This document shows positions 31,798 through 49,054 of a stretch of DNA of 53,021 nt, piece after piece (position 1 is the first letter of the stretch; the number at the start of each line of letters is the position of its first letter). Source of the DNA: Oscillospiraceae bacterium (GTDB lineage: Bacteria; Bacillota; Clostridia; Oscillospirales; Acutalibacteraceae); contig SVOR01000009.1 in assembly GCA_015066295.1 (NCBI GenBank), forward strand, positions 1 to 53,021. The letters are read 5' to 3'. The notes below the pieces were generated by a model. It was given only the letters and a program-made list of their open reading frames with translations. It had not been told where the DNA came from and did no database searches. The position numbers were made by a program, and so were the translations under genes.

Positions 31798-31817
31798 CAT
31801 CTTATATTTTAAATACT

Positions 31818-32079
31818 GTGATGGAATTATGCTATTTATAGTTTGCTTTCAGAGAGTTATCGTTTGGTGCGAGATAACACAAATTTAAATTAGCAGTCTC
31901 ATTCCGGAGTAGAGCATTGAAGAACCTTTGGTTTGGTAGATTGCTACGGATGCCCCGTTATCATGGCTTTGGACTTGTTAGAGTCTTAATGAGTGACCGC
32001 TTGTGCGGTAATCAGGGTGGTACCACGGATAAATTATTCGTCCCTGAGATTGCTTTTATGCAGTCTCGGGGATTTTTTA
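31818..32079 (+). promoter_or_regulatory. T-box riboswitch, specifier read as CUC (Leu)
   Basis: Stem I base GGAA (31823-31826) pairs with UUCC (31902-31905) and GCUA (31831-31834) with UAGC (31891-31894), leaving UUAU on the 5' side and AGU-CUC-A on the 3' side. By the usual layout (three-base loop-E part, specifier, purine) the specifier is CUC at 31898-31900, for leucine. The upper stem has AGAGAG and GGTG. The antitermination bulge is AGGGTGGTACCACGG at 32014-32028, whose T pairs with discriminator A. A terminator (TCCCTGAGA with TCTCGGGGA, 32041-32072, plus T run) follows. The loop-E sequence is atypical, so the codon assignment is probable rather than certain. Confidence 0.8.
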
Positions 32080-32117
32080 TTACCCGAGCAAAATTATTTT
32101 GAGAGAGGTATATTTTT

Positions 32118-33509
32118 ATGAAAATCAGAATCGCAGACAGAACCTTGTGTCGCGCAGAAAACGCTTTTACATTTAAGGAGAAAATTGAGATTGCGCGTCA
32201 ACTTTATAAGCTAAACGTTGACGTTATTGAATTATCTGAAATTGTGAACATTAAGGCAGACACACTTCTTGTTAAAACTATATCCTCATTTGTTAAGGAT
32301 ACTGTTTTGTCTGTTGCCACCGGTCTTACGGTTGATGGCGTTAATAATGCTGCTGAAGCACTTGGCGGCGCAAAGAAGCCTCGCCTTCGTATTGAGGCAC
32401 CCGTTTCAACCGTTGGTATGGAGTATGTTTGTCATAAGAAAGCCCCCGCAATGCTCGAGCTTGTTAAAAAGCTAATTATTGCCGCTAAAGAAAAAATTGA
32501 TGACGTTGAGCTTTGCTTGCTTGATGCTACCCGTGCTGAAAAAGACGTTATAGCAGAAATGTTTTCAGTAGCTAAGGAGAATGGTGTTACCACTATAACC
32601 TTGTGTGATAATGCTGCCGAAATGTTGCCCGATGAGTTTTCGGCCTTTGTAAAGGAAATGACCGATTCTATTAACGACACCAATATTTCGGTTGGTGTTA
32701 TGTGTGAAAATAAAAACGGTCTTGCCGCAGCAAATACCGTTATGTCGATTAAAAAAGGTGTTAACACTATTAAAACCGATATTGACGGCAACATTTCTTC
32801 GGTTATGACCATAGGTTCAATAATTAAAAATGCAGGTCAAAACTACGGTTTTGAGTCTACTCTTAAATTGACCGAGCTTAACAGAATTTATAATCAGATT
32901 AACTGGATAATCGGTAATTCAAAAAATCAAAAGAATATTGTATCCTCTGCTGATGCAGATAATAACGAAGTTGTACTCAGCAATAAGGATACCGCACAAA
33001 CCGTTAGTTCTGCTGTTTATAAGCTTGGCTACGATTTAAGCGAAGAAGATAATGCTAAGGTTTACGAGGAATTTTTACGTGTTACTGAGAAGAAAAATGT
33101 TACGGTTAAAGAGCTTGATGCAATTGTTGCAAGCGTAGCTTTACAGGTGCCTACTACCTACAAGTTAATCAGCTATTTGGTTAACAACGGTAATATCATC
33201 TCTGCAACTGCACAAATTACACTCGAAATGGACGGCAAAGAATTGCAGGGTGTTAGCATTGGCGACGGTCCTATTGATGCTGCATTTTTGGCTATTGAGC
33301 AGATTATCGGTCACCGCTATGAATTGGATGATTTCCAAATTCAGTCGGTAACCGAAGGTACCGAGGCTATGGGCTCAGCTGTCGTGAAATTACGCTCTGG
33401 CGGTAAGCTTTATTCGGGTAACGGTATTTCAACCGATATTATTGGCGCCGCAATTAAAGCATATCTTGCTGCCGTAAACAAGATTGTTTACGAGGAGGTT
33501 AATATATGA
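32118..33509 (+). CDS. LeuA-like protein: degenerate isopropylmalate synthase fold with intact LeuA allosteric domain
   Basis: A 463-aa protein. The N-terminal 270 residues follow the HMGL-like TIM barrel of 2-isopropylmalate synthase by position (IEIARQLYKLNVDVIE, KPRLRIEAPVSTVGMEY, LCLLDATRAEKDVIAEM), but the catalytic signatures are gone: DTTLRDGEQ is RTLCRAENA, the metal HxHND segment is MCENKNG and the ERAGN part is lost. The C terminus (about residues 345-460, YLVNNGNIISATAQITLEMDGKELQGVSIGDGPIDAAF to AVNKIVYEE) keeps the leucine-binding dimerisation domain. It is under a Leu T-box. It may be a leucine sensor, a partner of another enzyme or a changed-function enzyme; canonical LeuA activity is unlikely. 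Confidence 0.75.
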   Translation: MKIRIADRTLCRAENAFTFKEKIEIARQLYKLNVDVIELSEIVNIKADTLLVKTISSFVKDTVLSVATGLTVDGVNNAAEALGGAKKPRLRIEAPVSTVGMEYVCHKKAPAMLELVKKLIIAAKEKIDDVELCLLDATRAEKDVIAEMFSVAKENGVTTITLCDNAAEMLPDEFSAFVKEMTDSINDTNISVGVMCENKNGLAAANTVMSIKKGVNTIKTDIDGNISSVMTIGSIIKNAGQNYGFESTLKLTELNRIYNQINWIIGNSKNQKNIVSSADADNNEVVLSNKDTAQTVSSAVYKLGYDLSEEDNAKVYEEFLRVTEKKNVTVKELDAIVASVALQVPTTYKLISYLVNNGNIISATAQITLEMDGKELQGVSIGDGPIDAAFLAIEQIIGHRYELDDFQIQSVTEGTEAMGSAVVKLRSGGKLYSGNGISTDIIGAAIKAYLAAVNKIVYEEVNI

Positions 33510-36004
33510 AACTCTCTTTCTCAACAAAGGGTTGGCACGGAAATTCCTTCGATGAGTTTTGTGAAATAGCACAAGACCTCAATTTTAAGGGTATTGAACT
33601 GCACAACATTTATAATCCGCTTTTTACCGAAAAGGATGGCGCATTTTATGATTATGCCGCCAATGCTACCGTGCGCAAACTGTACGAAATGAAGTTAAGT
33701 CTTCCGTGTATTGATACTGTCTGCAATCCTTGTGATAAATCAAAACGCGGTGAAACAATTGGTGAAATAACAAAGTGTATGCAAATCGCTAAGAATTTAC
33801 ATATACCTTATGTCAGAATTCGCGCTATCAGTGATGATTCTGTCGAATCGGTCAGCGAAATTATGTCTGATGTTATTTCTGAAATTCTGCCCAAAGCCGA
33901 GCAAAACGGAATTACGATTTTGATAGAAACCTGCGGTGTATATTGTGATACCGCGGCTTTGAGAGATTTGCTCGAAAGATTTGCGTCGGATAATCTTGCG
34001 GCACTTTGGGATATGTATTCCACATATTTTTGTGGAAACGAGACGGCAGACACAACCATTAAGAACCTTGGTGCATACGTTCGCCATGTTCACATTAAGG
34101 ATGCGGTCAAAAAGGATGATACGACCGAATTTTGTCTTTTAGGTGAGGGCGAGCTTCCTATAAATGAAATGATGAACGCCTTGCGCTCGGTTAATTTTGA
34201 CGAGTTTATCTCGCTTGAATGGGACCCCAAATGGTGCGAAGAACTTGACGATATGGAGATAATTTTCTCACAATTTGTCAACTTTATGCGTCAGTTTGGC
34301 GACACTTCAAAAAATGATTCGGCACTTTATTACAACCGCGCCCACACGGGTAAATACGTTTGGGAGAAGGATAGACTTATTGATTTAACCTTCTCACAGG
34401 TGCTTGACCGCATGGTTGAGGAATTCCCTGACCAGTATGCTTTTAAGTATACAACTCTTGATTATACAAGAACTTACAGCGAATTTAGAGATGACGTTGA
34501 CGAATTTGCACGTACACTTATTGCACTTGGTGTTAAGGCAGGCTCGCACGTTGCGGTTTGGGCTTCTAACGTGCCGCAGTGGTATATTGCTTTTTGGGCT
34601 ACCGTTAAGCTTGGCGCAGTGCTCGTAACAGTAAATACCGCCTACAAAATTCACGAAATAGAGTATCTTTTAAAGCAGTCAGATACCCACACCTTAATTA
34701 TGACCGAGGGTGGTAAGGACTGCAATTATGGTGACGTAATTGCTGAATTGTGCCCTGAGCTTAAAAATACTAAGGCAGGGGAGCCATTGCATGCAAAACG
34801 CTTACCGTTTTTGCGCAACGTAATTACTGTTGGATATAGACTGAAAGGCTGTCTTAACTGGAATGAAGCGCTCGAGCTTGCTTCTCAGGTGCCGATTAGC
34901 GAAGTGTATAGACTTGCCGCCGCCGTTGAAAAGGACGACGTTTGTAATATGCAGTACACGTCGGGTACAACAGGCTTCCCGAAGGGTGTAATGCTTACCC
35001 ACTATAACGTTGTAAATAACGGTAAATACATTGGTGACCATATGGAATTATCAACTACCGACCGCATGATGATTCAGGTGCCTATGTTCCATTGCTTTGG
35101 TATGGTGCTTTCTATGACTGCATCTATGACACATGGTGCAACCATGAGTCCGTTACCGTATTTTTCACCAAAATCAGCACTCGCTTGCATTAACTCTGAG
35201 CGCATAACGACCTTTAACGGTGTGCCCACAATGTTTATTGCAATGATGGAGCATCCCGATTTTGCCAAGACCGATTTCTCACATATTCGTGTAGGAATTA
35301 TGGCCGGCGCTAACTGTCCTGCCGATTTAATGAAAAAGGCGACAGAGGTTATGAATATGCGTGAAATAGTTTCGGTTTACGGTCAGACCGAAGCGTCACC
35401 GGGCTGTACTATGAGCAGCTACTATGATTCTTTAACAGTACGTACCGAGACGGTTGGTAGCGCATTTGCTAACGTTGAGTGCAAAATCGTTGACCCTGAC
35501 ACAGGCAAAGAATGTCCAAACGGTGTTAACGGCGAATTTGTTGCACGCGGTTACAATATTATGAAGGGCTATTACAAGATGCCCACCGCCACCGCTGAGG
35601 CTATTGATGAGAATGGATGGCTTCATACGGGTGACCTCGCTTGCAGGGATGACGACGGTAACTATCGTATAACAGGCAGACTTAAGGATATGATTATTCG
35701 CGGTGGTGAAAACATCTATCCTAAGGAAATAGAAGAGTTCATTTATACCTGTGACAAGGTGAGTGACGTTCAGGTTATTGGTGTACCCGATAAACAGTAT
35801 GGTGAAGAAATTATGGCTTGCATCATACTAAAAGAGGGCGAGACAATGACCGAGGAAGAAATGAAGAAGTATATTTCCGACCATATGGCACGTCATAAGG
35901 TACCGAGATATATCGATTTTGTAGATTCCTTCCCAATGAATGCGGCGGGCAAAATATTAAAATATAAGATGCGGGAGGATGCAGTTAAAAAGCTTGGCTT
36001 ATAA
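33506..36004 (+). CDS. Fusion: xylose-isomerase-like TIM barrel + acyl-CoA synthetase (AMP-binding)
   Basis: An 832-aa two-part protein with a continuous frame. Residues 1-270 are a sugar-phosphate isomerase/epimerase-type barrel (FKGIELHN; ILIETCGVYCD; ALWDMYSTYFC; RHVHIKD; FISLEWDP), with plausible metal ligands. After a linker, residues about 285-832 form an adenylating acyl-CoA synthetase with MQYTSGTTGFPKGVMLTHYN, SVYGQTEASPG, WLHTGDLACRDDDGNYRITGRLKDMIIRGGENIYPKEIEEF and the lysine in NAAGKILKYKMR. All key ligase motifs are intact. The start overlaps the LeuA-like gene by 4 bases. By context it probably activates a branched short-chain acid such as isovalerate (inference). Confidence 0.85.
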   Translation: MKLSFSTKGWHGNSFDEFCEIAQDLNFKGIELHNIYNPLFTEKDGAFYDYAANATVRKLYEMKLSLPCIDTVCNPCDKSKRGETIGEITKCMQIAKNLHIPYVRIRAISDDSVESVSEIMSDVISEILPKAEQNGITILIETCGVYCDTAALRDLLERFASDNLAALWDMYSTYFCGNETADTTIKNLGAYVRHVHIKDAVKKDDTTEFCLLGEGELPINEMMNALRSVNFDEFISLEWDPKWCEELDDMEIIFSQFVNFMRQFGDTSKNDSALYYNRAHTGKYVWEKDRLIDLTFSQVLDRMVEEFPDQYAFKYTTLDYTRTYSEFRDDVDEFARTLIALGVKAGSHVAVWASNVPQWYIAFWATVKLGAVLVTVNTAYKIHEIEYLLKQSDTHTLIMTEGGKDCNYGDVIAELCPELKNTKAGEPLHAKRLPFLRNVITVGYRLKGCLNWNEALELASQVPISEVYRLAAAVEKDDVCNMQYTSGTTGFPKGVMLTHYNVVNNGKYIGDHMELSTTDRMMIQVPMFHCFGMVLSMTASMTHGATMSPLPYFSPKSALACINSERITTFNGVPTMFIAMMEHPDFAKTDFSHIRVGIMAGANCPADLMKKATEVMNMREIVSVYGQTEASPGCTMSSYYDSLTVRTETVGSAFANVECKIVDPDTGKECPNGVNGEFVARGYNIMKGYYKMPTATAEAIDENGWLHTGDLACRDDDGNYRITGRLKDMIIRGGENIYPKEIEEFIYTCDKVSDVQVIGVPDKQYGEEIMACIILKEGETMTEEEMKKYISDHMARHKVPRYIDFVDSFPMNAAGKILKYKMREDAVKKLGL

Positions 36005-36037
36005 TTTGTCAATTCTTTTCTTTCTGCATAAGATGTA

Positions 36038-36832
36038 ATGTATCCGATTATTGATTGCCATTGCCATATTTATCCCGATAAAATCGCCCAAAAGGCATCT
36101 GATGCAACGGGTAAATTTTATGATATTAAAATGCACTATAATGGTACTGCCAAGGAGCTTGGCAGTATCGGTGCTGCGGCACGAATTTCGCATTATATAG
36201 TTTTTTCTGTTGCCACCACGCCTAAGCAGGTTGCATCAATTAACAGTTTTATTGCCGACCTTGTTTCAAAAAACACAAATATGACGGGACTCGGCACTCT
36301 GCATCCCGATAGTGACGATTTAGAGGGCGATATTGAAAATATCGTTTCTTTAGGCCTTCGCGGTGTTAAACTTCATCCCGAAATTCAAGGCTTTAAAATT
36401 GATGACTACCGTTGCCTTAAAATCTATGAAAAATGCGAGGGTAAATTACCCGTTCTTATTCACACGGGGGATTCTCGCTATGATATGTCAAATCCCAACC
36501 GATTAAAACCAATTCTTGAAACCTATACCGATTTAACGGTAATCGGTGCCCATTTTGGTGGTTATTCGGTTTGGGAAAACGCTGTTGAAGAGCTAAAGTC
36601 TTATAAGAATTTCTTTGTTGACACCTCGTCAACCTTTCCGTTTATAAGTAAAGAGCAGGCGAGAAGGTATATAAAAACATACGGCGCCGAAAAAATTATG
36701 TTTGGTACCGATTATCCAATGTGGAATCCCAAAGATGAGGTTGAATATCTACTGAATCTTGGTTTAGATGAGGATGAATATAAAAAAATATTCTACGAAA
36801 ATGCTCAAAAGCTGTTTAAAATACAGCTTTAA
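36038..36832 (+). CDS. Amidohydrolase family protein (Amidohydro_2)
   Basis: A 264-aa metal-dependent hydrolase-like barrel. Zinc-type ligands: HCHIYP near residue 8 (HxH), LHPEIQG near 111, GAHFGG near 170 and FGTDYPMWNP near 228. ACMSD, resorcylate decarboxylases and other Amidohydro_2 members share this layout; many act on C-C bonds or amides. It starts 33 bp after the fusion gene with no clear RBS (CATAAGATGTA before the ATG), so translation may depend on the upstream gene. No terminator separates it, so it is the third gene of the Leu T-box operon. Substrate unknown. Confidence 0.82.
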   Translation: MYPIIDCHCHIYPDKIAQKASDATGKFYDIKMHYNGTAKELGSIGAAARISHYIVFSVATTPKQVASINSFIADLVSKNTNMTGLGTLHPDSDDLEGDIENIVSLGLRGVKLHPEIQGFKIDDYRCLKIYEKCEGKLPVLIHTGDSRYDMSNPNRLKPILETYTDLTVIGAHFGGYSVWENAVEELKSYKNFFVDTSSTFPFISKEQARRYIKTYGAEKIMFGTDYPMWNPKDEVEYLLNLGLDEDEYKKIFYENAQKLFKIQL

Positions 36833-36844
36833 AGCAATTTTTAG

Positions 36845-36873
36845 TTGACAGAGTATAATTTCTGTGTTATTAT
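36845..36873 (+). promoter_or_regulatory. Promoter of the lysC-lysA operon
   Basis: A perfect TTGACA at 36845-36850 and TATTAT at 36868-36873 with a 17-base spacer, starting the lysine riboswitch transcript near 36880. Confidence 0.8.
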
Positions 36874-36880
36874 CTTTGAA

Positions 36881-37098
36881 GTGATAGAGGTGCGTTTGAT
36901 TATTAGTAATCGCGGTGTATAAGCTTGGCAAGCGTTACCGCAATGAAAGGAATCGGCGCCGAAGGCGGTTGTTGCCAACAATCGTACTGGCAAAACGGGT
37001 TAATACCTGTTTTGTTGTCGCAGTTTTCTGCGGAGTGCTATCTGCTTAACATTTTTTGTTTTTGGCGGATAGTCGTTTTGCGACTATCCTTTTTTTAA
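36881..37098 (+). promoter_or_regulatory. Lysine riboswitch with terminator platform
   Basis: The aptamer runs from GTGATAGAGGTGCG (36881) to GGAGTGCTATC (37042), the L-box signature; internal GGCGCCGAAGGCGG and CTGG...CCTG segments match lysine riboswitches. P1 is GATAG (36883-36887) with CTATC (37038-37042). The antiterminator pairs CTATCTGC (37038-37045) with GCGGATAG (37065-37072); the terminator pairs GGATAGTCG (37067-37075) with CGACTATCC (37081-37089) and ends in a T run. Lysine binding closes P1, frees the terminator and stops transcription of lysC. Confidence 0.93.
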
Positions 37099-37123
37099 GT
37101 ATTTTATTTATGGGGGAAAACTC

Positions 37124-38443
37124 ATGTTAAAGGTATTAAAATTTGGCGGTAGTTCACTCGCCGATGCCAATCAGTTCAGAAAGGTTGCCGATATAATTAA
37201 GGCCGAAAAAGAGCGTCGTTATATCGTTGCGTCGGCTCCCGGTAAGCGTCATGCAAATGACATTAAAATTACCGATATGCTGCTTGATTGTTTCGAGCAT
37301 CTTTATGATGAAGAGTATGCCGAGACAAGCTTTAACGCAATTGAAAATCGTTACAGAGAAATCATTGCCGATTTAGGATTAGACTTCTCGTTAGAGGAGG
37401 ATTTTAAGAATATCAGAACTTCTTTTATGAACCACGCTGGTCGCGATTACTTTGCAAGCCGTGGTGAATATCTTAACGCCAAGATTCTTGCAAAATATCT
37501 TGATTATAAATTTGTAGATGCAGGCTCGTGCATTTTCTTTAATAATGATGGCTCTCTTGATACTGAGAAAACCAATATTACTATTGCTAAGGTGCTTGAG
37601 AAGTACGAATACGCCGTTTTACCGGGCTTTTACGGCTCAATGCCTAACGGTACTATTAAGACCTTCTCACGTGGTGGTTCAGATATAACGGGTTCGTTGG
37701 TTGCTCGTGCCGTTCTTGCTGATATTTACGAAAATTGGACCGACGTTTCGGGTCTATTGATGGTTGACCCACGAATTGTAGAAAATCCGAAAACCGTTAG
37801 CGAGATTACCTATCGTGAGCTTCGCGAATTATCTTATATGGGCGCAACTGTTTTGCACGAGGAGGCAATTTTCCCCGTACGTAAGGCAGGCATACCGATA
37901 AATATTAAAAACACCAATGCGCCTGAGGATAAGGGTACTATGATTGTTTCCAAGGCAACAACCGACTCTACCGAAACGGTAATTACAGGTGTTGCAGGCT
38001 TGCCCGGATTTACAGCGATTTATATCGAGAAAGATATGATGAATTCAGAGGTTGGCTTTACAAGACGCGTTCTTGAAACACTTCAAAATCATAATATCTG
38101 TTTTGAGCATTTACCGAGTGGTATTGACACAATGTCCATTGTACTTCGCTCTGATGATATCAAGGAGTTCAAGGGCAATATTACTGCCGACATCGTTAAA
38201 AAGGTAAATCCCGATTCTATTACCTTGCTTGAAAATTTGGCTTTGGTTGCCGTTGTTGGTCGTGGTATGATTAGTGCTGCCGGTACTGCCGCAAAGATAT
38301 TTAAGGCACTTGCCGACGCAAATATCAATATCAGAATGATAGACCAGGGTTCAAGTGAGCTTAATATCATAATCGGTGTTGAGGATAAGGACTATAAGAA
38401 CGCCATTAAGGCAATTTACAACAAGTTTGTTAATGAGGAATAA
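37124..38443 (+). CDS. lysC: Aspartokinase (lysine-responsive)
   Basis: A 439-aa kinase for the first step of aspartate-family amino acid synthesis. The amino-acid kinase domain starts KFGGSSLADANQFRKVADII; further motifs are AKYLDYKFVDAG, TFSRGGSDITGSLVARA and DVSGLLMVDPRI. Two ACT domains at about residues 300-439 (AIYIEKDMMNSEVGFTRRVLETL; LALVAVVGRGMISAAGTAAKIF) bind the effector. The lysine riboswitch and the lysA neighbour indicate the lysine branch. Confidence 0.95.
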   Translation: MLKVLKFGGSSLADANQFRKVADIIKAEKERRYIVASAPGKRHANDIKITDMLLDCFEHLYDEEYAETSFNAIENRYREIIADLGLDFSLEEDFKNIRTSFMNHAGRDYFASRGEYLNAKILAKYLDYKFVDAGSCIFFNNDGSLDTEKTNITIAKVLEKYEYAVLPGFYGSMPNGTIKTFSRGGSDITGSLVARAVLADIYENWTDVSGLLMVDPRIVENPKTVSEITYRELRELSYMGATVLHEEAIFPVRKAGIPINIKNTNAPEDKGTMIVSKATTDSTETVITGVAGLPGFTAIYIEKDMMNSEVGFTRRVLETLQNHNICFEHLPSGIDTMSIVLRSDDIKEFKGNITADIVKKVNPDSITLLENLALVAVVGRGMISAAGTAAKIFKALADANINIRMIDQGSSELNIIIGVEDKDYKNAIKAIYNKFVNEE

Positions 38444-38445
38444 TA

Positions 38446-39741: not shown

Positions 39742-39773
39742 TTTTTATAACTTAAAATTGGTTAAATTTTTAG

Positions 39774-39806
39774 CTCGTCTCAAGGCAATTTGAGGCGAGT
39801 TTTTTG
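39774..39806 (+). terminator. Terminator after lysA
   Basis: Inverted repeat CTCGTCTCAA (39774-39783) with TTGAGGCGAG (39790-39799), a loop of 6, then T run. The stem sequence reappears in the T-box terminator at 40094-40134. Confidence 0.9.
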
Positions 39807-39817
39807 TTTTATTTATA

Positions 39818-39846: not shown

Positions 39847-39864
39847 TTTTAAAAATTTTCAAAA

Positions 39865-40135
39865 GCGTTGAAGAAGAGTTATCCTTTATGATGTTTTTCA
39901 GAGAATTGGCGTTTGGTGCGAGCCAATAAAACTAATTTTGGATATGTAGCTTCTGAGCCGAAGGGAAGAACGTCTTATACTTAGATTAGTAGAACCCTTT
40001 CGTGATTGCTGCGTAAAGGCATAGGATTTGACAGAATCCGAGAGTGGCGGTTTAAAACTGCAATTTGAGTGGTACCGCGGGTTATGATTTTTAACTCGTC
40101 TCAAAGATTTTCTGCGTCTTTGAGGCGAGTTTTTC
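39865..40135 (+). promoter_or_regulatory. T-box riboswitch, specifier read as GUA (Val)
   Basis: Stem I base AGAAG (39872-39876) pairs with CTTCT (39950-39954); AGTT (39877-39880) is the loop-E side; ATCC (39881-39884) pairs with GGAT (39940-39943). Counting back from CTTC, G-[GTA] gives specifier GUA (39946-39948) for valine, with the purine G at 39949. The upper stem has CAGAGA and GGTG. The T-box core GAGTGGTACCGCGG is at 40067-40080, with T for discriminator A. The terminator ACTCGTCTCAAAG (40094-40106) / CTTTGAGGCGAGT (40118-40130) plus T run follows. The frame reading could be off by one or two bases. Confidence 0.8.
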
Positions 40136-40163
40136 GTTCTCAAAGCTATTTTGGAGGGTTATT

Positions 40164-42452
40164 ATGGAGCAAATGACAGGACTTGATTTAAAAATCAAGG
40201 AAATGGCATCGCGTATTAAAGAACTGCGCGAAATTGAAGGCTTGACCACGGCACAAATGGCTGAAAAAACAGGCATAAGCGAAAGCGAATACGTTAATTG
40301 TGAAAACGGCAAGAGTGACCTTAACTTTGCCTTTATTTATCGTTGTGCACAAGCATTTAACGTCGACGTTACCGATATTATTGAGGGCAGCAGTCCGAAA
40401 CTTAAATCTCTGGTTGTAACAAGAGCGGGCGGCGGTCAAAGGATTGAGCAAGCGCATGGTATGACATATTATAACTTGGCATCAGCTTTTCAAAACAGAA
40501 TTGCTGAGCCTCTTTACGTACATAGTGTATACAGCGAGGAAGCACAGAAGCGCGAAATTGAACTAACCTCACACTCGGGACAAGAATGTGATATCATTAT
40601 TCAAGGTCACTTACTTGTTCAGGTTGGTAAGCATAAAGAGGTTTTAGGACCTGGTGATACTATTTATTACGATAGTAGTACACCGCACGGTATGATTGCG
40701 ACTAATGGCAGCGACTGTCTTTTCTATGCAATTGTACTTAATCCGACAGGCGAGCCCATTCCCGAGCTTACCAAGGGCGAGGCTGTAACACTTAAAAAGG
40801 CTGCTCCAAGCGATAAGAAACCACGTATTTATAAAAACTTTATTGATACCGAGGTTGACGAAAACGGCACACCTACAAAAATCACCTTTAAGAATACCGA
40901 TAAGTTTAATTTCGCATTTGATTTGGTTGACGGACTTGCCGAACGTGAGCCCGAAAAGCTTGCAATGCTTTATATCGGTAAGGATTTAAGCGAGCGCAGA
41001 TTTACCTTTAAGGATATGAAAAAAGCGTCTAACCAGTGCGCTAATTACTTTAAATCGCTCGGTATTAAAAAGGGCGATAGGGTAATGCTCGTTCTTAAAC
41101 GTCATTATCAGTTTTGGTTTGCTATTCTTGGACTTAATAAGCTTGGTGCAATTGCGATTCCTGCAACGAATCAGCTTTTAGACCACGACTTTGAATATCG
41201 CTTTAATGCGGCGGGCATCAGCACTGTTATTTGTACTGCCGATGGCGATACCGCAAGACAAATTGAAATCGCGGCAGAGAAGTCACCCAGTCTTGTTAAT
41301 AAGCTAATCGTTAACGGTGAGCGCGAGGGTTGGCGCAGTTTTGATGAAGAATATACACTATTCAGTACTCATTTTGAGCGTACAGTTGATTCACCCTGCG
41401 GCAACGATACAATGATGATGTATTTTACATCGGGTACAACGGGTTATCCCAAAATTGCTACCCATAATTACAAATATGCTTTGGGTCACTTCCACACCGC
41501 TAAATATTGGCACTATGTTGACCCCGAGGGACTTCACTTTACCATTTCCGACACAGGTTGGGCAAAGGCAATGTGGGGCAAGCTCTATGGTCAATGGTTG
41601 TGTGAGGCGGCAACCTTTGTTTATGATTTTGACCGCTTTGATGCGGCTGAAATTCTGCCAATGTTTGAAAAATATCATATTACTACCTTCTGCGCACCGC
41701 CGACGATGCTTAGAATGATGGTAAAGCAGGATATTTCAAAATATGATTTCTCATCTGTAAGACACATGTCAACAGCAGGCGAGGCGCTAAACCCCGAGGT
41801 TTACCGTCAGTTTGAAAAAGCTACGGGTCTACAAATTCTTGAAGGATTTGGTCAGACAGAGAGCACCATGATAATCGGCAATATGATTGGCGCACCGCAT
41901 AAAATCGGCTCTATGGGTAAGCCTGCACCGATTTACAACGTTGCATTGCTTGATAGCGACGGCAAACGTGTTAAAGACGGTGAAAACGGCGAAATTTGTA
42001 TTGACGTTTCACAAGGTATGCCTTGTGGCTTGTTTACCGGTTATTATATGGATAAAGAAAAGACCGATGAGGTGCTTCACGACGGCTACTATCACACAGG
42101 CGACGTTGCTTGGCGTGATGAGGACGGTTTCTATTGGTATGTTGGTCGTGTTGACGACGTTATTAAGTCGTCGGGTTACCGTATTGGACCGTTTGAAATT
42201 GAAAACGTTATTATGGAATTACCTTATGTTCTCGAATGTGGCGTTTCGGCTGCTCCCGATGAAATTCGTGGTCAGGTTGTTAAGGCAAGCATTGTACTTA
42301 CACCGGGCACCGAGGGTACCGAGGAATTAAAGAAGGAAATCCAAACTTACGTTAAGGAGCATACGGCACCTTACAAATATCCGCGTATCGTTGTTTTCCG
42401 CGACGAGTTGCCCAAGACCGTTAGCGGTAAAATAATTCGCAATAAGCTATAG
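40164..42452 (+). CDS. Fusion: HTH-cupin regulator + acyl-CoA synthetase
   Basis: A 762-aa protein. Residues 10-66 are an XRE-type HTH (IKELREIEGLTTAQMAEKTGISESEYVNCENGKSD), residues about 110-195 a cupin (GQECDIIIQGHLLVQVGKHKEVLGPGDTIYYDSSTPHGM), the pair usually found alone as a 180-aa regulator. Residues 240-762 are a medium-chain-type acyl-CoA synthetase: MYFTSGTTGYPKIATHNY, EGFGQTESTMIIGN, YHTGDVAWRDEDGFYWYVGRVDDVIKSSGYRIGPFEIE and the lysine in KTVSGKIIRNKL. All ligase motifs are intact. By context the substrate is probably isobutyrate or similar (inference). It heads the vor-ilvE operon behind the Val T-box. Confidence 0.88.
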   Translation: MEQMTGLDLKIKEMASRIKELREIEGLTTAQMAEKTGISESEYVNCENGKSDLNFAFIYRCAQAFNVDVTDIIEGSSPKLKSLVVTRAGGGQRIEQAHGMTYYNLASAFQNRIAEPLYVHSVYSEEAQKREIELTSHSGQECDIIIQGHLLVQVGKHKEVLGPGDTIYYDSSTPHGMIATNGSDCLFYAIVLNPTGEPIPELTKGEAVTLKKAAPSDKKPRIYKNFIDTEVDENGTPTKITFKNTDKFNFAFDLVDGLAEREPEKLAMLYIGKDLSERRFTFKDMKKASNQCANYFKSLGIKKGDRVMLVLKRHYQFWFAILGLNKLGAIAIPATNQLLDHDFEYRFNAAGISTVICTADGDTARQIEIAAEKSPSLVNKLIVNGEREGWRSFDEEYTLFSTHFERTVDSPCGNDTMMMYFTSGTTGYPKIATHNYKYALGHFHTAKYWHYVDPEGLHFTISDTGWAKAMWGKLYGQWLCEAATFVYDFDRFDAAEILPMFEKYHITTFCAPPTMLRMMVKQDISKYDFSSVRHMSTAGEALNPEVYRQFEKATGLQILEGFGQTESTMIIGNMIGAPHKIGSMGKPAPIYNVALLDSDGKRVKDGENGEICIDVSQGMPCGLFTGYYMDKEKTDEVLHDGYYHTGDVAWRDEDGFYWYVGRVDDVIKSSGYRIGPFEIENVIMELPYVLECGVSAAPDEIRGQVVKASIVLTPGTEGTEELKKEIQTYVKEHTAPYKYPRIVVFRDELPKTVSGKIIRNKL

Positions 42453-42460
42453 AGGAAAAT

Positions 42461-43144
42461 ATGAAGGCTAAAAGACTTACTTTATTCGCAGGTCATTACG
42501 GCAGCGGTAAGACAAACATCGCAGTTAATTATGCCTTTGAACTTTGCGCACGTAATTTACCTGTAATAATTGCTGATTTGGATATAGTTAATCCATATTT
42601 CAGAACCAAAGACAGTGAGGCCGAATTTATTGAGAAGGGAATTGAGCTTGTTTGCTCGTCTTTTACGAATTCCAATCTTGATATTCCGGCTTTGCCTCAA
42701 GAAATGTATAAAGTAGTGCAAAACAAATCAAAGTATGGTATAATAGATATTGGTGGTGACGACCAAGGTGCGGTGGCGCTGGGCCGTTACGTGCCGTACA
42801 TATTAGAGGAAAACAACTACGATATGCTGTTTGTTGCTAATTGCTTCAGACCGCTCACTACAACTCCTGAGGATACAATCACTGTTATGCGTGAAATTGA
42901 GGCCGCCTGCGGCATTAAATTCACGGGAATTGTTAATAATTCTAACCTCGGTAACGAAACAACTTCGGATGACGTTATTATGAGTTTGGAATATATAAAA
43001 AAGATTTCTGACAGTACGGGGCTGCCTGTGGTTATGAACTGCGTCAAGGCAGATCTTTACGGTCAGTTATTAGGCAAGGTTGATAATTTATTTTCTTTGA
43101 CCTTACAAACAAAATATTTTGATATAAATACTGGGGGTATTTAG
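42461..43144 (+). CDS. P-loop ATPase, MinD/ParA-like, of the vor operon
   Basis: A 227-aa ATPase with a deviant Walker A at the N terminus (TLFAGHYGSGKTNIAVNYAFEL, GSGKT at about residue 15), VIIADLDIVNPYFRTKD and GIIDIGGDDQGAVALGRYV. It lacks a membrane-targeting helix at its C terminus. Such ATPases occur in clostridial 2-oxoacid:ferredoxin operons; a role in cluster or cofactor insertion is possible (NUBPL/Mrp-like ATPases do this) but unproven. It is 9 bp after the ligase and 2 bp before the ferredoxin-type subunit. Confidence 0.8.
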   Translation: MKAKRLTLFAGHYGSGKTNIAVNYAFELCARNLPVIIADLDIVNPYFRTKDSEAEFIEKGIELVCSSFTNSNLDIPALPQEMYKVVQNKSKYGIIDIGGDDQGAVALGRYVPYILEENNYDMLFVANCFRPLTTTPEDTITVMREIEAACGIKFTGIVNNSNLGNETTSDDVIMSLEYIKKISDSTGLPVVMNCVKADLYGQLLGKVDNLFSLTLQTKYFDINTGGI

Positions 43145-43145
43145 A

Positions 43146-43352
43146 ATGGCGAAGCTTACTTTTAAAACCGATATGTGTAAGGGTTGCGGACTTTGCGTTG
43201 ATGCTTGTCCCAAAAAGCTTCTTGTTATCGCAAAAGACAAAATCAACAAAAAAGGACATTCTCCCGCCGAGATTACCGACGAGAGTCAGTGCATTGGTTG
43301 TGCATTCTGTGCAACTATGTGTCCCGATTGTATTATAACTGTTGAAAGGTAG
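43146..43352 (+). CDS. vorD: 2-ketoisovalerate:ferredoxin oxidoreductase, ferredoxin-like delta subunit
   Basis: A 68-aa bicluster ferredoxin with two 4Fe-4S motifs: CKGCGLCVDACP (about residues 13-24) and CIGCAFCATMCPDC (about 49-62). It transfers electrons from the TPP site to external ferredoxin. It is small, typical of the delta subunit of four-subunit VOR/KOR/POR complexes, and leads the subunit cluster D-B-A-C. Confidence 0.92.
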   Translation: MAKLTFKTDMCKGCGLCVDACPKKLLVIAKDKINKKGHSPAEITDESQCIGCAFCATMCPDCIITVER

Positions 43353-43360
43353 GGGTAAAA

Positions 43361-44425
43361 ATGGCAAAAAAGGTACTTATGAAGGGTAACGAAGCAATTG
43401 CTGAAGCCGCTATTATGGCTGGTTGCAGACACTATTTTGGTTATCCTATAACTCCTCAAACTGAAATTGCGGCCTATATGGCTAAAAGAATGCCTAAAAT
43501 CGGCGGTACGTTTTTACAGGCTGAGAGCGAGGTTGCCGCTATAAATATGGTTTATGGCGTTGCTTCAACCGGTAAGCGTGTTATGACTTCTTCTTCAAGC
43601 CCGGGCGTTGCCTTAAAGAGTGAAGGTCTTTCATATATGGCCGGTAGTGATTTGCCCGGTCTTATCGTTAACGTTCAGCGTGGTGGTCCCGGTCTTGGCG
43701 GCATTCAGCCTTCACAGTCCGACTACTTTATGGCTACAAAGGCAGGCGGTCACGGTGACTTCCGTATGATAGTTTTGGCACCGTCGTCTGTTCAAGAAAT
43801 GGCAGACCTTACCATCAAGGGCTTTGACCTTGCAGAAAAATACCGTATGACTACTATGATTTTGGCAGATGGTACAATGGGTCAGATGATGGAACCGGTT
43901 GAGCTTAAAGAACCCGAAATCAATGAATATGATAAATCTTGGGCTGTTACCGGTACCAAGATGCAGCGTAAGCACAATATCATTAACTCTTTGTCACTTA
44001 TTCCTGATGAACTCGAACAGCTTAACTTTGCTCGTTTTGAGAGATATAAGACAATTGAGGAAAACGAGGTTATGTACGAGGAATTTATGATGGATGATGC
44101 CGAAATTTGCGTTGCTGCATTTGGTATCGCTGCGCGTATTTCGAAGAATGCTATCATAGCAGCTCGTCAGCAGGGTATTAAGGTTGGTCTTATCCGTCCT
44201 ATTACTCTTTGGCCGTTCCCGACAGACGTATTTGCAAAGGCTGCCGATAAGGTTAATTCCTTTATTTCGGTTGAGCTTTCAATGGGTCAGATGATTGAGG
44301 ACGTTCGTCTTGCAACAGGTTGTAAAAAGCCGGTTACTCTTTGCAACCGCGCAGGCGGTATGATTCCGTCACCTGAGCAGGTATTAGAAAAAATTATTGA
44401 AGCTTCAAAGGGAGGTAACAAGTAA
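43361..44425 (+). CDS. vorB: 2-ketoisovalerate:ferredoxin oxidoreductase, alpha subunit (VorB type)
   Basis: A 354-aa protein with the transketolase pyrimidine domain (GNEAIAEAAIMAGCRHYFGYPITPQTEIAAYMAKRMP) and domain II (ARISKNAIIAARQQGIKVGLIRPITLWPFP). The motif GYPITPQTE is characteristic of the KorA/VorB group. It works with the TPP subunit next to it in reversible oxidation of 2-oxoisovalerate to isobutyryl-CoA and CO2. 2-Oxoglutarate cannot be excluded by sequence, but the Val T-box and IlvE support the branched-chain assignment. Confidence 0.88.
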   Translation: MAKKVLMKGNEAIAEAAIMAGCRHYFGYPITPQTEIAAYMAKRMPKIGGTFLQAESEVAAINMVYGVASTGKRVMTSSSSPGVALKSEGLSYMAGSDLPGLIVNVQRGGPGLGGIQPSQSDYFMATKAGGHGDFRMIVLAPSSVQEMADLTIKGFDLAEKYRMTTMILADGTMGQMMEPVELKEPEINEYDKSWAVTGTKMQRKHNIINSLSLIPDELEQLNFARFERYKTIEENEVMYEEFMMDDAEICVAAFGIAARISKNAIIAARQQGIKVGLIRPITLWPFPTDVFAKAADKVNSFISVELSMGQMIEDVRLATGCKKPVTLCNRAGGMIPSPEQVLEKIIEASKGGNK

Positions 44426-45177
44426 TGGTAGTTTTTGAAAAACCAAAGGCTTTGGCTGACGTGTCAATGCACTATTGTCCGGGTTGTACACACGGTATCA
44501 TTCACCGTCTTGTTGCCGAAGTTATTGATGAATTAGGCATTGAGGGTAAAACAATTGGTGTTGCGCCTGTTGGTTGCTCTGTTATGGCTTATAATTACTT
44601 TAACTGTGATATGGTAGAGGCGGCTCATGGTCGTGCTCCTGCCGTTGCAACTGGACTTAAGCGTTCAGATCCTGAAAATCATATTGTATTTACATATCAG
44701 GGCGATGGCGACTTAGCATCAATCGGTATGGCAGAAACCGTACACTCAGCAACTCGTAATGAAAATATCACCGTTATATTTGTTAACAATGCCATTTATG
44801 GTATGACCGGTGGTCAGATGGCACCGACCTCATTACCGGGTCAGGTAACACAGACTTCACCCTATGGTCGTGACACTAATCATTGCGGCTTTCCTATAAA
44901 GGTTTGCGAAATGTTATCAGAGCTTGATGGTCCCGAGTATTTAGAGCGTGTTGCAGTAAATAACGTTAAAAACGTTAGAAACGCAAAAAAGGCCATCAAA
45001 AAGGCTTTTGAAAACCAAATCAACAACAAAGGCTTCTCACTTATTGAGGTTGTTTCAAGCTGTCCTACCAACTGGGGTATGACACCGCAAAAGGCTTTGG
45101 AATGGGTTGAAGAAAAAATGATTCCTTACTATCCGCTCGGTGTTTACAAAGACCGCAGTGCAGATAGTGATAAATAG
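44425..45177 (+). CDS. vorA: 2-ketoisovalerate:ferredoxin oxidoreductase, beta subunit (TPP-binding)
   Basis: A 250-aa TPP-dependent subunit. The cysteine in YCPGCTHGIIHR (near residue 19), the Mg-TPP motif YQGDGDLASIGMAETVHSATRNENITVIFVNNAIYGMTGGQMAPTS and GCSVMAYNYFNCDM are typical of KorB/VorA. It overlaps the stop of the alpha subunit by one base (TAATG). No 4Fe-4S site of its own is seen beyond the cysteines at the N-terminal end. Confidence 0.9.
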   Translation: MVVFEKPKALADVSMHYCPGCTHGIIHRLVAEVIDELGIEGKTIGVAPVGCSVMAYNYFNCDMVEAAHGRAPAVATGLKRSDPENHIVFTYQGDGDLASIGMAETVHSATRNENITVIFVNNAIYGMTGGQMAPTSLPGQVTQTSPYGRDTNHCGFPIKVCEMLSELDGPEYLERVAVNNVKNVRNAKKAIKKAFENQINNKGFSLIEVVSSCPTNWGMTPQKALEWVEEKMIPYYPLGVYKDRSADSDK

Positions 45178-45194
45178 TCGGGAGGGCAATAATT

Positions 45195-45731
45195 ATGAAA
45201 ACTACACAAATTCTTATTGCCGGTTTCGGCGGTCAAGGCGTTCTTTTTGCAGGTAAATTTTTAGCCTACAAGGGACTAATTGAGGATAAAAACGTAAGCT
45301 GGTTGCCGTCCTACGGTCCTGAGATGCGTGGCGGTACCGCTAACTGCAGTATTATAATCAGTGATACTCCGGTTGGCTCACCGATTGTCTCTACACCCGA
45401 TTGCTTAATTGCAATGAATTTGCCGTCTTTATTGAAGTATAAGGATAGCGTTGTATCGGGTGGTGTCATTATTGTTGATTCTACCTTAATTGATGAGAAA
45501 ATCGACCGTGATGATGTATCGGTTTACTATGTGCCTGCTACAAAAATGGCAAGTGATGAAGGCTTCTCTACACTTGCTAATATGATTCTTATTGGTAAGC
45601 TTTTAGATGCTTGTAATGAGTTTACCATTGATGGTACCGAGGCGGCTCTTGAAAAGGTAATTCCTCCGCGTAAGGCTGAAATGTCAGGTATCAACCTAAA
45701 AGCAATTAAGCTTGGTTATGATTTTAAATAA
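45195..45731 (+). CDS. vorC: 2-ketoisovalerate:ferredoxin oxidoreductase, gamma subunit
   Basis: A 178-aa subunit with the gamma-domain start TTQILIAGFGGQGVLFAGKFLAYKGLIED and LPSYGPEMRGGTANCSIIISD. It completes the four-subunit oxidoreductase, probably binding CoA at the interface. RBS GGGAGGG, 17 bp after the beta subunit. Confidence 0.92.
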   Translation: MKTTQILIAGFGGQGVLFAGKFLAYKGLIEDKNVSWLPSYGPEMRGGTANCSIIISDTPVGSPIVSTPDCLIAMNLPSLLKYKDSVVSGGVIIVDSTLIDEKIDRDDVSVYYVPATKMASDEGFSTLANMILIGKLLDACNEFTIDGTEAALEKVIPPRKAEMSGINLKAIKLGYDFK

Positions 45732-45749
45732 TTTAAAGAAGGTATTTTA

Positions 45750-46814
45750 ATGTTAGATATTAAAGTTACAAAAACAACAAATCCGAAAGAAAAACCTGCA
45801 AAAGGTGCTGCTTTAGGATTCGGTCGTATTTTTACCGACCATATGTTTATTATGAACTATACAGAGGGCAAGGGTTGGCATGATGCACGTATTGAGCCTT
45901 ATCACAACCTTGAATTATCTCCTGCATCAATGGTGTTCCATTACGGTCAGGAAATGTTTGAAGGTCTTAAAGCGTATAGAAACGGCGACAACGCTTATCT
46001 TTTCCGTCCCGATATGAATGCTAAGCGTGCAAACGCTTCTAATGAGCGTCTTTGCATCCCTGAGATTCCGGAAGAAGATTTCGTTCAGGCAGTAGCCGAG
46101 CTTGTAAAGATTGATAAGGATTGGATTCCTACCGACGAGGGTACTTCGCTTTACATCCGTCCTTTTGTTATTGCAACCGACGATTTCCTCGGTGTTGCAC
46201 CTTCAAAGACCTATATGTTCATCGTAATTCTTTCTCCAAGTGGCGCTTACTACGCGAGTGGTTTAGCACCTGTTGGCATTTGGATTGAGGATGAATACGT
46301 ACGTGCCGTTAAGGGTGGTATGGGCTTTGCTAAAACAGGCGGTAACTATGCCGCAAGCCTTATTGCTCAGGTAAAAGCACACGATGGCGGCTATTCTCAG
46401 GTACTTTGGCTCGACGGTGTTGAGAGAAAGTACATCGAAGAAGTTGGCGCTATGAATATTTTCTTCAAAATCGGCGGCAAGATTGTTACACCTATGCTCA
46501 ATGGTAGCATCTTACCCGGTATTACACGTAACTCTGTAATTCAGGTTTGCAAATCTTGGGGTTATGAGGTTGAAGAGAGAAAAATCAGCGTTGATGAACT
46601 CGTTGCTGCCGCTAAATCGGGTGAGCTTGAGGAAGTATTTGGCACAGGTACTGCCGCTGTAGTTTCTCCCGTTGGTAAGCTTCGCTATGTTGATGACGTT
46701 ATGGAAATCGGCGGCGGAAAAATTGGCGAGCTTACTCAAAAACTCTATGATACCATCACCGGTATTCAGTGGGGTAAGACAGAAGACCCGTTTGGGTGGA
46801 GAATTGAACTCTAA
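45750..46814 (+). CDS. ilvE: Branched-chain amino acid aminotransferase
   Basis: A 354-aa fold-IV PLP aminotransferase. PASMVFHYGQEMFEGLKAYR near residue 54, LYIRPFVIATDDFLGV near 131, KTGGNYAASLIAQ with the PLP lysine in GGMGFAKTGGNYA near 198, and EVGAMNIFF. Transfers amino groups between glutamate and 2-ketoisovalerate, 2-ketoisocaproate or 2-keto-3-methylvalerate. It is in the Val T-box operon directly behind vorC, giving the last step of the predicted route. Confidence 0.95.
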   Translation: MLDIKVTKTTNPKEKPAKGAALGFGRIFTDHMFIMNYTEGKGWHDARIEPYHNLELSPASMVFHYGQEMFEGLKAYRNGDNAYLFRPDMNAKRANASNERLCIPEIPEEDFVQAVAELVKIDKDWIPTDEGTSLYIRPFVIATDDFLGVAPSKTYMFIVILSPSGAYYASGLAPVGIWIEDEYVRAVKGGMGFAKTGGNYAASLIAQVKAHDGGYSQVLWLDGVERKYIEEVGAMNIFFKIGGKIVTPMLNGSILPGITRNSVIQVCKSWGYEVEERKISVDELVAAAKSGELEEVFGTGTAAVVSPVGKLRYVDDVMEIGGGKIGELTQKLYDTITGIQWGKTEDPFGWRIEL

Positions 46815-46832
46815 TTTTTGGAGGATAAGCTA

Positions 46833-48119
46833 ATGAGCAACTACAATATTGAAACAAAATGTGTTCAGGGCGGTTATACACCTGGAAACGGCGAACCGCG
46901 TCAAATTCCTATTATCCAGAGCACAACCTTTAAATACGCAACAAGTGAAGATATGGGTAAGTTGTTTGACCTTGAGGCAAGCGGTTATTTCTATACCCGT
47001 CTTCAAAACCCTACAAATGATAGCGTTGCCGCTAAAATCTGCGATATGGAGGGTGGCACTGCCGCTATGCTGACTTCATCAGGTCAGGCAGCAAACTTCT
47101 ACAGCATATTTAATATTGCAAACTGCGGTGACCATATTGTTTCTTCATCGGCTATTTATGGCGGCACTTATAATCTTTTTGCCGTTACAATGAAAAAGAT
47201 GGGTATTGAATTTACCTTTCTTTCACCCGACTGTACCGACGAAGAGTTAGAGGCTGCTTTTAGACCTAACACAAAGGCAGTATTTGGTGAGACCATTGCT
47301 AACCCTGCAGTTAGCGTGTTGGATATTGAAAAATTTGCAAATGCAGCACATAAACACGGTGTTCCGCTTATTATTGATAATACCTTTGCGACACCCGTTA
47401 ACTGTCGTCCTTTCGAGTGGGGTGCAGATATTGTTACTCATTCAACCACGAAATATATGGATGGCCATGGTGCAGGCGTTGGCGGTTGTATTGTTGATTC
47501 AGGTAAATTCGACTGGACTAAATATGCCGATAAATATCCGGGTCTTTGTACACCCGATGACAGCTATCACGGTGTAACATATACAGAGCGTTTTGGACTT
47601 GAGGGTGCATTTATTACCAAGGCAACTGCACAGTTAATGCGCGACTTTGGTTCAATTCAGTCTCCGCAAAATGCATTTCTTTTAAATCTTGGACTTGAAA
47701 GCTTACACCTCAGAATGAAAAAGCATTGTGAAAACGGGCTTGCAATAGCAAAATATCTTAAAAATAACGAGAAGGTTGCTTGGGTTTCATATCCCGATTT
47801 AGAAGGGGATAAGTACTACGATTTAGCTAAGAAGTATTTACCCAACGGCTCTTGCGGTGTTGTTAGTTTTGGCGTTAAGGGTGGCAGAGCTGCCGCTGAA
47901 AAGCTTATGAAAAACTTAAAGATTGCCGCAATAGAGACCCACGTTGCCGATGCAAGAACCTGTTGTTTACATCCTGCAAGTGCAACTCACCGTCAGATGA
48001 ATGATGAAGAACTAATTGCGGCAGGTGTACCTGGTGACCTAATTCGTTTCTCTTGCGGCATTGAAAATGCCGAGGATTTAATTGCTGATTTACAGCAAGC
48101 ATTCGATAAAATTGACTAA
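46833..48119 (+). CDS. metY: O-acetylhomoserine (thiol)-lyase
   Basis: A 428-aa Cys/Met-metabolism PLP enzyme. Starts at 46833 after TTGGAGG, giving [29 protein letters not shown] motif [16 protein letters not shown] near residue 205 (lysine), [17 protein letters not shown], and [13 protein letters not shown]. It makes homocysteine from O-acetylhomoserine and sulfide. The length (over 420) and long insert fit MetY rather than the shorter MetB/MetC/MetZ. It is read through from the Val T-box operon, 18 bp after ilvE. Confidence 0.92.
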
Positions 48120-48133
48120 TTTGGAGTATTATT

Positions 48134-49054
48134 ATGCCAATTAAAATACCGAACGACCTTCCTGCTACCGAGGTTTTGCGTAACGAAAATATATTCGTTA
48201 TGACCGAAACCCGTGCTATTACGCAGGATATTCGACCGCTTAAAATTTTAATACTTAATTTAATGCCCACAAAGATTGATACTGAGACACAGTTATCACG
48301 TCTTCTCGGTAATACGCCTTTGCAGGTTGAGATTGATTTGATGAATACTTCATCTCACGCTTCAAAAAACACCTCGCAAGAGCATTTATTGGCGTTTTAT
48401 AAGCAATTTAAGGATATAAAACACAATTATTACGATGGTATGATTATTACCGGTGCTCCCGTTGAGCTTATGGAGTTTGAAGAGGTTGATTATTGGGAAG
48501 AGCTTTGCGAGATTTTTGAGTGGACGAAAAAACACGTTCACAGCACCTTCCATATTTGTTGGGGTGCACAGGCCGGTTTATACTACCATTTTGGTATAAA
48601 AAAGTATAAGCTCGATAAAAAAATGTTTGGTATTTTTCCGCATAAGGTCGACCATAAGAGCTCAATTCTTTTCAGAGGCTTTGATGATACCTTTTTAGTG
48701 CCGCATTCGCGCCACACAACAATCAGTAGGGAAGACCTTGAAAAAATTCCTGAGCTTAAAATTTTATCAACCTCTGATGAAGCGGGCGTTTATGCCATTG
48801 CAACCAATGAAGGCAAACAAATATTCATAACAGGTCATTCTGAGTATGATGCAGATACCTTGAAAAAGGAATATTTCCGCGATAAAAACGCAGGATTGCC
48901 AATTGAGGTACCTAAAAATTATTTCCCGAATGATGATGATACCTTGCCACCTTTGGTTACTTGGCGCGCACACGCAAATCTGCTTTATTCAAACTGGTTA
49001 AACTATTTCGTTTATCAAACAACACCATACGATATCGAGGATATCGATAAATAA
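48134..49054 (+). CDS. metA: Homoserine O-acetyltransferase (MetA family)
   Basis: A 306-aa enzyme of the MetA fold; nucleophilic Cys in [18 protein letters not shown] (about residue 142), and [10 protein letters not shown] and [15 protein letters not shown] further on. At the position that selects the acyl donor this protein has Glu (GAPVELMEF), where acetyl-CoA-using Bacillus MetA has Glu and the E. coli succinyl enzyme has Gly; acetyl transfer is therefore predicted, which matches MetY next to it. Last gene before a terminator at 49070. Confidence 0.92.

Follow-up and report, generated by a model that had tools for sequence, protein, structure and literature searches.

The window analysed here is a 53,021-nucleotide stretch of an Oscillospiraceae gut bacterium (SVOR01000009.1, positions 1 to 53,021), which corresponds to contig C20 of a 1.54 Mb draft genome (96.75% complete, 44 contigs). 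It holds two operons that each lie behind a T-box leader and each encode an acyl-CoA synthetase fusion. A Leu T-box precedes a LeuA-like gene (hereafter pseudo-LeuA), a TIM-barrel::acyl-CoA synthetase fusion (TIM-ligase) and an amidohydrolase. A Val T-box precedes a helix-turn-helix (HTH)::cupin::acyl-CoA synthetase fusion (HTH-cupin ligase), a small P-loop ATPase, the four subunits of a 2-oxoisovalerate:ferredoxin oxidoreductase (VOR), ilvE, metY and metA. Together the ligases, VOR and ilvE make up a putative route by which branched short fatty acids would be salvaged into branched-chain amino acids (BCAA). Its elements are as follows.

31809..32048, + strand: Leu T-box leader (RF00230, 104.6 bits, full model length)
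31898-31900, + strand: Leu specifier codon CUC, followed by A (alignment to the lower Stem I helix)
32118..33509, + strand: pseudo-LeuA, a LeuA-like protein with the metal ligands lost and LeuA_dimer intact (Pfam HMGL-like and LeuA_dimer)
33506..36004, + strand: TIM-barrel::acyl-CoA synthetase fusion, proposed to serve the Leu arm as isovaleryl-CoA ligase (Pfam AP_endonuc_2, AMP-binding and AMP-binding_C)
39859..40106, + strand: Val T-box leader (RF00230, 102.3 bits, full model length)
39946-39948, + strand: Val specifier codon GUA, followed by G (alignment to the lower Stem I helix)
40164..42452, + strand: HTH::cupin::acyl-CoA synthetase fusion, proposed to serve the Val arm as isobutyryl-CoA ligase (Pfam; Val-specifier side of the ligase tree)
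42461..43144, + strand: P-loop ATPase of the CobQ/MinD/ParA type (CbiA, E 0.006, 16.9 bits, below the cut-off of 25.4)
43146..43352, + strand: VOR 4Fe-4S (delta) subunit
43361..44425, + strand: VorB, the 2-oxoisovalerate:ferredoxin oxidoreductase alpha subunit (NF005507, 544.8 bits, cut-off 399)
44425..45177, + strand: VOR beta subunit, binding thiamine diphosphate (Pfam TPP_enzyme_C above its cut-off, PorB_KorB below its cut-off)
45195..45731, + strand: VOR gamma subunit (Pfam POR above its cut-off, NF006323 and PorC_KorC below theirs)
45750..46814, + strand: IlvE, branched-chain aminotransferase (TIGR01123, 414.8 bits, cut-off 250)

Both leaders exceeded the RF00230 gathering score of 93. 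An antiterminator bulge UGGU could be read from the sequence of each, and a strong hairpin followed by a U-run lies at each 3' end, so that Stem I with a specifier loop, a UGGN bulge and a competing terminator are all present. Both leaders are thus predicted to respond to the matching uncharged tRNA. The specifier codons were placed by aligning Stem I of 18 T-boxes (A2); the helix beneath the specifier loop shows covariation in this alignment (GGAA/UUCC, GAAG/CUUC, GCGG/CCGC and GAUA/UAUC). Across the three Stem I helices tested, pairing was retained in 99.5% of the cells, and two-sided changes were detected in 64 cells, compared with 17.2 after shuffling and no more than 10 after sliding. The covarying lower helix fixes the codon register, so that the upstream leader carries the Leu codon CUC and the downstream one the Val codon GUA. 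The first-pass annotation had read these two codons by eye, each before an acyl-CoA synthetase fusion, and the model scores and the Stem I alignment confirmed both; specifiers for other amino acids were looked for in the window leaders and not found.

Nine T-boxes were detected in the genome at E 0.001. Six of them precede pheS-pheT, trpB, thrS, cysE-cysS, ileS and aspS (named by reading the downstream proteins), and a further one, on contig C39, has an AUC (Ile) specifier and stands before a lone gene for an HTH-cupin ligase of 776 aa that is 61% identical to the Val one. With this unit, each of the three amino acids Leu, Val and Ile has its own ligase under T-box control. The separate Leu and Val ligases had been considered unusual in the first-pass annotation; they do appear to be dedicated, but there are three of them rather than two, and they recur in many gut Clostridia. 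Besides this Ile unit, the LeuA homologue at the head of the Leu operon, the lysine riboswitch with lysC-lysA and the metY-metA pair are features that go beyond that annotation.

To compare related loci, the best 80 of at least 587 relatives of pseudo-LeuA from a contig scan were kept, and 93 distinct pseudo-LeuA loci (the window included) were used for the T-box and residue counts; L097, a duplicate of L049, was dropped from the latter and kept in the counts of 80. Most titles of the best 80 name Clostridia or families within them (exceptions include Eggerthellaceae for L145 and Salinivirgaceae for L167), and a herbivore host is named in 37 of the 80. The TIM-ligase is the next same-strand pathway gene after pseudo-LeuA in 80/80 loci, at a median gap of 1 base (up to 203 in 79 of them and 700 in L128). 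With a Stem I model (R1), a T-box was detected directly upstream of pseudo-LeuA in 64 of the 93 loci, and the codons called were CUC in 50, CUG in 13 and GGA in one, so that 63 calls were Leu. The GGA call comes from L121, where the leader is split by an insertion; read by eye, the sequence beyond the insert gives CUG. With the Rfam model alone, 12 of the 13 carrier loci retrieved first, outside the window, showed a T-box immediately before pseudo-LeuA. Among the 29 loci in which no T-box was detected, four have fewer than 320 bases upstream, 13 come immediately after ilvE, VOR or amidohydrolase genes, and the other 12 show neither. In the same stretches plus L043, with duplicates dropped, the T-boxes of HTH-cupin ligases read AUC in 25 cases, GUA in 22 and GUC in three. 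As 18 of these leaders went into R1, the model may be biased in favour of their codons; even so, it called other codons in unrelated T-boxes of that search (UGG at L054:12607 and UCC at L056:6846).

The homologous clusters thus keep Leu codons for the TIM-ligase module and Val or Ile codons for the HTH-cupin ligases, a positive outcome for the comparison suggested in the first-pass annotation, and the synonymous changes (CUC/CUG and GUA/GUC) suggest that the amino acid rather than the triplet is maintained. Since genes inherit their leaders, the match of codon and ligase is no independent proof of the substrate. In L121 (9301-10001) the insertion that splits the leader inside Stem I is of inverted-repeat, MITE-like type, and a similar sequence occurs again just before the start codon. 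In L116, L133, L140 and L152 the VOR genes are followed by a more divergent HTH-cupin and ligase stretch (43-55% identity over the ligase portion); the L116 and L140 matches are interrupted between the two parts, which are perhaps two genes. That these four are ligase-only genes was ruled out, as the HTH-cupin part is covered too.

In a tree of 49 HTH-cupin ligases, from which the short L155 reading frame (373 aa) was omitted, the 24 AUC rows and the 25 GUA or GUC rows fall on opposite sides of one branch (support 100/100, unrooted). Sites that strictly separate Val from Ile rows number seven in the HTH-cupin part and one in the ligase domain. The latter, residue 467, is Ala in 25/25 Val rows and Gly in 23/24 Ile rows, and the aligned place is Gly in 3etc and Ile in acetyl-CoA synthetase 7kds. 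In acetyl-CoA synthetases this position is taken to line the acyl pocket. The series Ile for acetate, Ala for isobutyrate and Gly for 2-methylbutyrate would then fit the growing acyl group, and the Val-type ligase is predicted to act on isobutyrate and the Ile-type ligase on 2-methylbutyrate. The nearest solved structure of the Val ligase, 3etc (E 4e-178), is MacsMa, the acyl-CoA synthetase of Methanosarcina acetivorans, which prefers 2-methylbutyrate (3ETC; PMC10455477). MacsMa differs in having no HTH-cupin part and aligns only from residue 245 of the window Val ligase. Among NCBIfam models the best match of this ligase was AcylCoAsynMbcS (NF047394), with a score of 431.7 that is about half of the family cut-off of 850. 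We take MbcS to be the short-chain acyl-CoA synthetase of Staphylococcus aureus. The S. aureus enzyme is described as supporting branched fatty-acid synthesis (PMC10026030), unlike the role proposed here for the HTH-cupin ligases. The solved relatives of the TIM-ligase are broad (feruloyl-, malonyl- and fatty-acyl-CoA synthetases) and uninformative on isovalerate; the Leu T-box is what points to isovalerate as its probable substrate.

All four VOR subunits (alpha, beta, gamma and 4Fe-4S) are present together in the window, and VorB is the single gene above the NF005507 cut-off in the whole genome. The 4Fe-4S subunit directly precedes VorB in 44/44 sources with a strong VorB, one of which is a duplicate record. 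VOR and IlvE belong to the Val operon in this genome and lie just upstream of the Leu module in L047-L051. The complete VOR and ilvE that the first-pass annotation had assigned to the Val operon were recovered by the NF005507, Pfam and TIGR01123 matches. We infer that this VOR would work on branched 2-oxoacids and in the carboxylating direction. The P-loop ATPase has a match in 36 of the 80 stretches and adjoins VOR genes in relatives; a MinD/ParA-like ATPase in this position is perhaps a maturation factor for the Fe-S enzyme.

The search for the de novo pathway revealed neither IlvC nor IlvD in the genome (family searches that detected both in 14/14 control genomes), and a catalytically complete LeuA was not found among its three HMGL-family proteins; ilvB and leuBCD were not included in the searches. 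The three HMGL-family proteins are a Re-citrate-synthase-like protein encoded near an aconitase-like gene, a carboxyltransferase-like protein (both named by reading) and the LeuA-like protein of the window. In L044 (G000 C10), by reading, a Re-citrate-synthase-like gene is followed by a GntR/FadR-type regulator gene and then by an aconitase-like gene.

Pseudo-LeuA and IlvC avoid each other across genomes. Among 394 genomes of the order, pseudo-LeuA was detected in 85 (E up to 1e-60) and IlvC in 204 (E up to 1e-30), and IlvC occurred in 11/85 carriers of pseudo-LeuA compared with 193/309 non-carriers (Fisher p 7e-17, a value that overstates the avoidance because the genomes are not independent). 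Among the 60 nearer relatives, IlvC was present in 1/14 carriers and in 27/46 others (p 7e-4), and VorB above the cut-off in 14/14 and 27/46, respectively. All 14 carriers also have a near-full-length match to the HTH-cupin ligase without a stop; several other relatives show a stop codon inside this match, as would be expected of cupin and ligase encoded side by side.

The protein encoded at the head of the Leu operon is related to 2-isopropylmalate synthase (LeuA), with which it shares the two-part architecture and the LeuA_dimer domain (PF08502, 110 bits against a cut-off of 24.9, positions 2-130 of 131 matched). However, it falls below the NCBIfam LeuA equivalog cut-offs (249.8 vs 532 and 220.6 vs 598.7). 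In LeuA the metal ligands are taken to be the catalytic Asp of the LRDG motif and the two His residues of HxHND. In pseudo-LeuA the LRDG motif is LCRA, and HCHND is MCENK by comparison with 3rmj and 3ewb and in a 13-row alignment, so that the metal-ligand set of LeuA is missing from the window protein. All three ligands are kept in 1/93 related rows, a true LeuA beside the L145 cluster, and any one of them in 6 of the other 92. The mean pairwise identity of the pseudo-LeuA rows, in which the L145 true LeuA is still included, is 0.62 in the leucine-binding part and 0.40 in the barrel, whereas seven true LeuA rows have the barrel as the better conserved part (0.56, against 0.46 for the leucine-binding part). 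An AlphaFold model of pseudo-LeuA, of moderate quality (pTM 0.58, regulatory domain partly weak), was used for the fold alone; the top Foldseek matches of pseudo-LeuA were methylthioalkylmalate and isopropylmalate synthases. A sequence search of the regulatory domain against solved structures gave a single weak match, 3f6g (E 0.69). Pseudo-LeuA is probably a repurposed leucine sensor, that is, a LeuA without catalysis but with a conserved leucine-binding domain. The true LeuA of L145 (L145:15904, + strand, 505 aa, with LRDGE and HCHND) is encoded some 2 kb after the pseudo-LeuA/TIM-ligase pair, which implies that both kinds can coexist in one record.

These observations make it probable that the bacterium has a three-arm salvage route in which branched short fatty acids are converted to Leu, Val and Ile through dedicated T-box-controlled ligases, a shared VOR and IlvE. 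Isovalerate, isobutyrate and 2-methylbutyrate would each be activated by a dedicated AMP-forming ligase, with the TIM-ligase serving the Leu arm and the Val-type and Ile-type HTH-cupin ligases the other two. The one shared VOR would then reductively carboxylate the acyl-CoA, using CO2 and reduced ferredoxin, to the 2-oxoacid, which IlvE would aminate to Leu, Val or Ile. A shortage of one BCAA would leave its tRNA uncharged, the matching T-box would read through and the ligase of that arm would be made. Pseudo-LeuA, produced together with the TIM-ligase, would most likely provide leucine feedback on the Leu arm at the protein level. On this last point we lean, with some reserve, towards a scheme in which LeuA was kept as a pseudoenzyme after the loss of de novo synthesis and became a separate leucine-sensing subunit that gates an unrelated TIM-ligase, so that leucine would exert control twice, through RNA and through protein. 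The order from acid through acyl-CoA and 2-oxoacid to BCAA had been put forward in the first-pass annotation and gained support from the comparison of homologous clusters. Of the two findings looked for that would have spoken against it, specifiers for other amino acids did not appear in the window leaders. As to a complete ilvBCD/leuABCD pathway, the enzymes searched (IlvC, IlvD and a catalytic LeuA) were not found in this genome; IlvC is kept in some of the TIM-ligase genomes considered below.

Flux in the opposite direction would mean that transamination and VOR-catalysed oxidation turn BCAA into acyl-CoA, as a source of energy or of branched membrane lipids, with the ligases feeding fatty-acid synthesis. 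VOR and IlvE are in general reversible, and both the sub-threshold MbcS match of the HTH-cupin ligase and the function of the S. aureus enzyme described above are compatible with such a role. Nevertheless, T-boxes raise expression when the amino acid is scarce, which is the wrong sign for consumption, and the three specifiers are matched to amino acids. Moreover, the AMP-forming ligases cost ATP, and as IlvC and IlvD were not found in the genome, BCAA would otherwise have to be imported. We therefore consider the opposite flux improbable. Even less credible, to the point of being nearly dismissed, is a reading in which the specifier of the Val leader is UGU (Cys) or AUG (Met) and its association with branched-chain genes is accidental. 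The letters AUGUAG do contain both triplets in other registers and the operon ends with metY-metA, but the lower helix GAAG/CUUC that sets the register covaries across rows, relatives read GUA in differing contexts (TTTGTAG, TGCTGTAG) and GUC in three cases, and in the relatives that show metY-metA these genes stand beside the Leu module or upstream. The UGU and AUG registers were thus ruled out by the covarying lower helix and the codons of relatives.

As regards pseudo-LeuA, an enzyme with new chemistry, such as a divergent DRE-TIM lyase acting on isovaleryl-CoA or on a product of the TIM domain, seems unlikely to us. The constant TIM-ligase partner and the invariant polar residues that remain in the barrel (e.g., H106, K108, E131, D136, R139 and K219 in 13 rows) would agree with retained catalysis. 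In contrast, the near-complete loss of the metal ligands outside the L145 true LeuA, and a barrel less conserved than the leucine-binding part, opposite to true LeuA, argue against it.

Several findings weigh against the salvage route as a whole. The sequence gives no direction for VOR, and a strong VorB occurs in only 36 of the 80 stretches, many of which are short; two weak 28% matches are left out of this count. Immediately upstream of pseudo-LeuA, 12 of the 93 loci lack both a T-box and a pathway gene, and the non-independence of genomes noted above weakens the avoidance of IlvC. Gaps of the draft assembly could hide the missing genes, and the searches did not extend to ilvB, leuBCD and BCAA uptake. 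In addition, TIM-ligase matches (E 1e-200, at most two candidates scored per genome) were obtained in 160 genomes, which include 83 of the 85 carriers of pseudo-LeuA, and 77 of the 160 have no pseudo-LeuA, with some matching the ligase part only; the TIM-ligase alone was rejected as a pathway marker for this reason. When 20 of the 77 were sampled, IlvC was present in 10 and a T-box was absent in six.

The T-boxes in the other 14 sampled genomes all read CUC (Rfam at its cut-off calls eight of them), and IlvC was present in 6/14 genomes with a Leu T-box on the ligase and in 4/6 without it. The link between the Leu T-box and the ligase is thus wider than the partnership with pseudo-LeuA, and perhaps older. 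The retention of IlvC in part of these genomes implies that the branched-acid route can also supplement de novo synthesis.

Rumen physiology has long included the conversion of isovalerate to Leu, isobutyrate to Val and 2-methylbutyrate to Ile (PMC7356843, citing Allison and co-workers). The precursors and products of this carboxylation route are those proposed here; as cited there, those works comprise physiology and labelling, and no genes are named in the passages concerned. In the present genome there are ligases dedicated to single acids in the proposed scheme, a single VOR, IlvE, control of every arm by its own tRNA, and a partner protein derived from LeuA. No open-licence paper naming the genes and control of the rumen branched-acid route was found. 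T-box leaders of BCAA genes and transporters belong to the same RNA class and follow the same tRNA logic, and the main text of a survey of them holds no mention of acyl-CoA, CoA ligase, ferredoxin or isovaler (PMC2494555). No report of T-box-controlled branched-acid ligases or of pseudo-LeuA was found in the open-licence literature. What appears to be new is therefore the gene set with its amino-acid-specific ligases, the T-box triad and pseudo-LeuA; the chemistry itself is known. Because the T-box codon would name the product of each ligase, substrates could be predicted from sequence for many uncultured gut Clostridia, and annotated Leu, Val or Ile auxotrophs may in reality cross-feed on isovalerate, isobutyrate and 2-methylbutyrate. 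Pseudo-LeuA, if the sensor role is true, would represent a clear case of an allosteric domain that has outlived its enzyme.

The remaining features of this region are listed below.

36038..36832, + strand: amidohydrolase (Pfam Amidohydro_2), accessory
36877-37048: lysine riboswitch (Rfam), between the two T-box units, preceding lysC-lysA
46818..49054, + strand: metY (O-acetylhomoserine sulfhydrylase) and metA (homoserine O-acetyltransferase), TIGR01326 and NF047918 above their cut-offs

The amidohydrolase was matched in 27 of the 80 stretches and is not constant in relatives. The metY-metA pair follows closely behind ilvE and is outside the proposed pathway; it comes after the Leu module in L048, L051, L095 and L164 and upstream of the cluster in L050. 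The genome contains the sporulation genes sigE and spoIVA. Beside spoIVA, at the contig end (50619-52715, - strand), there are genes for a XerC-like tyrosine recombinase and a Zot-like ATPase of the filamentous-phage pI type, which perhaps mark the edge of a filamentous prophage.

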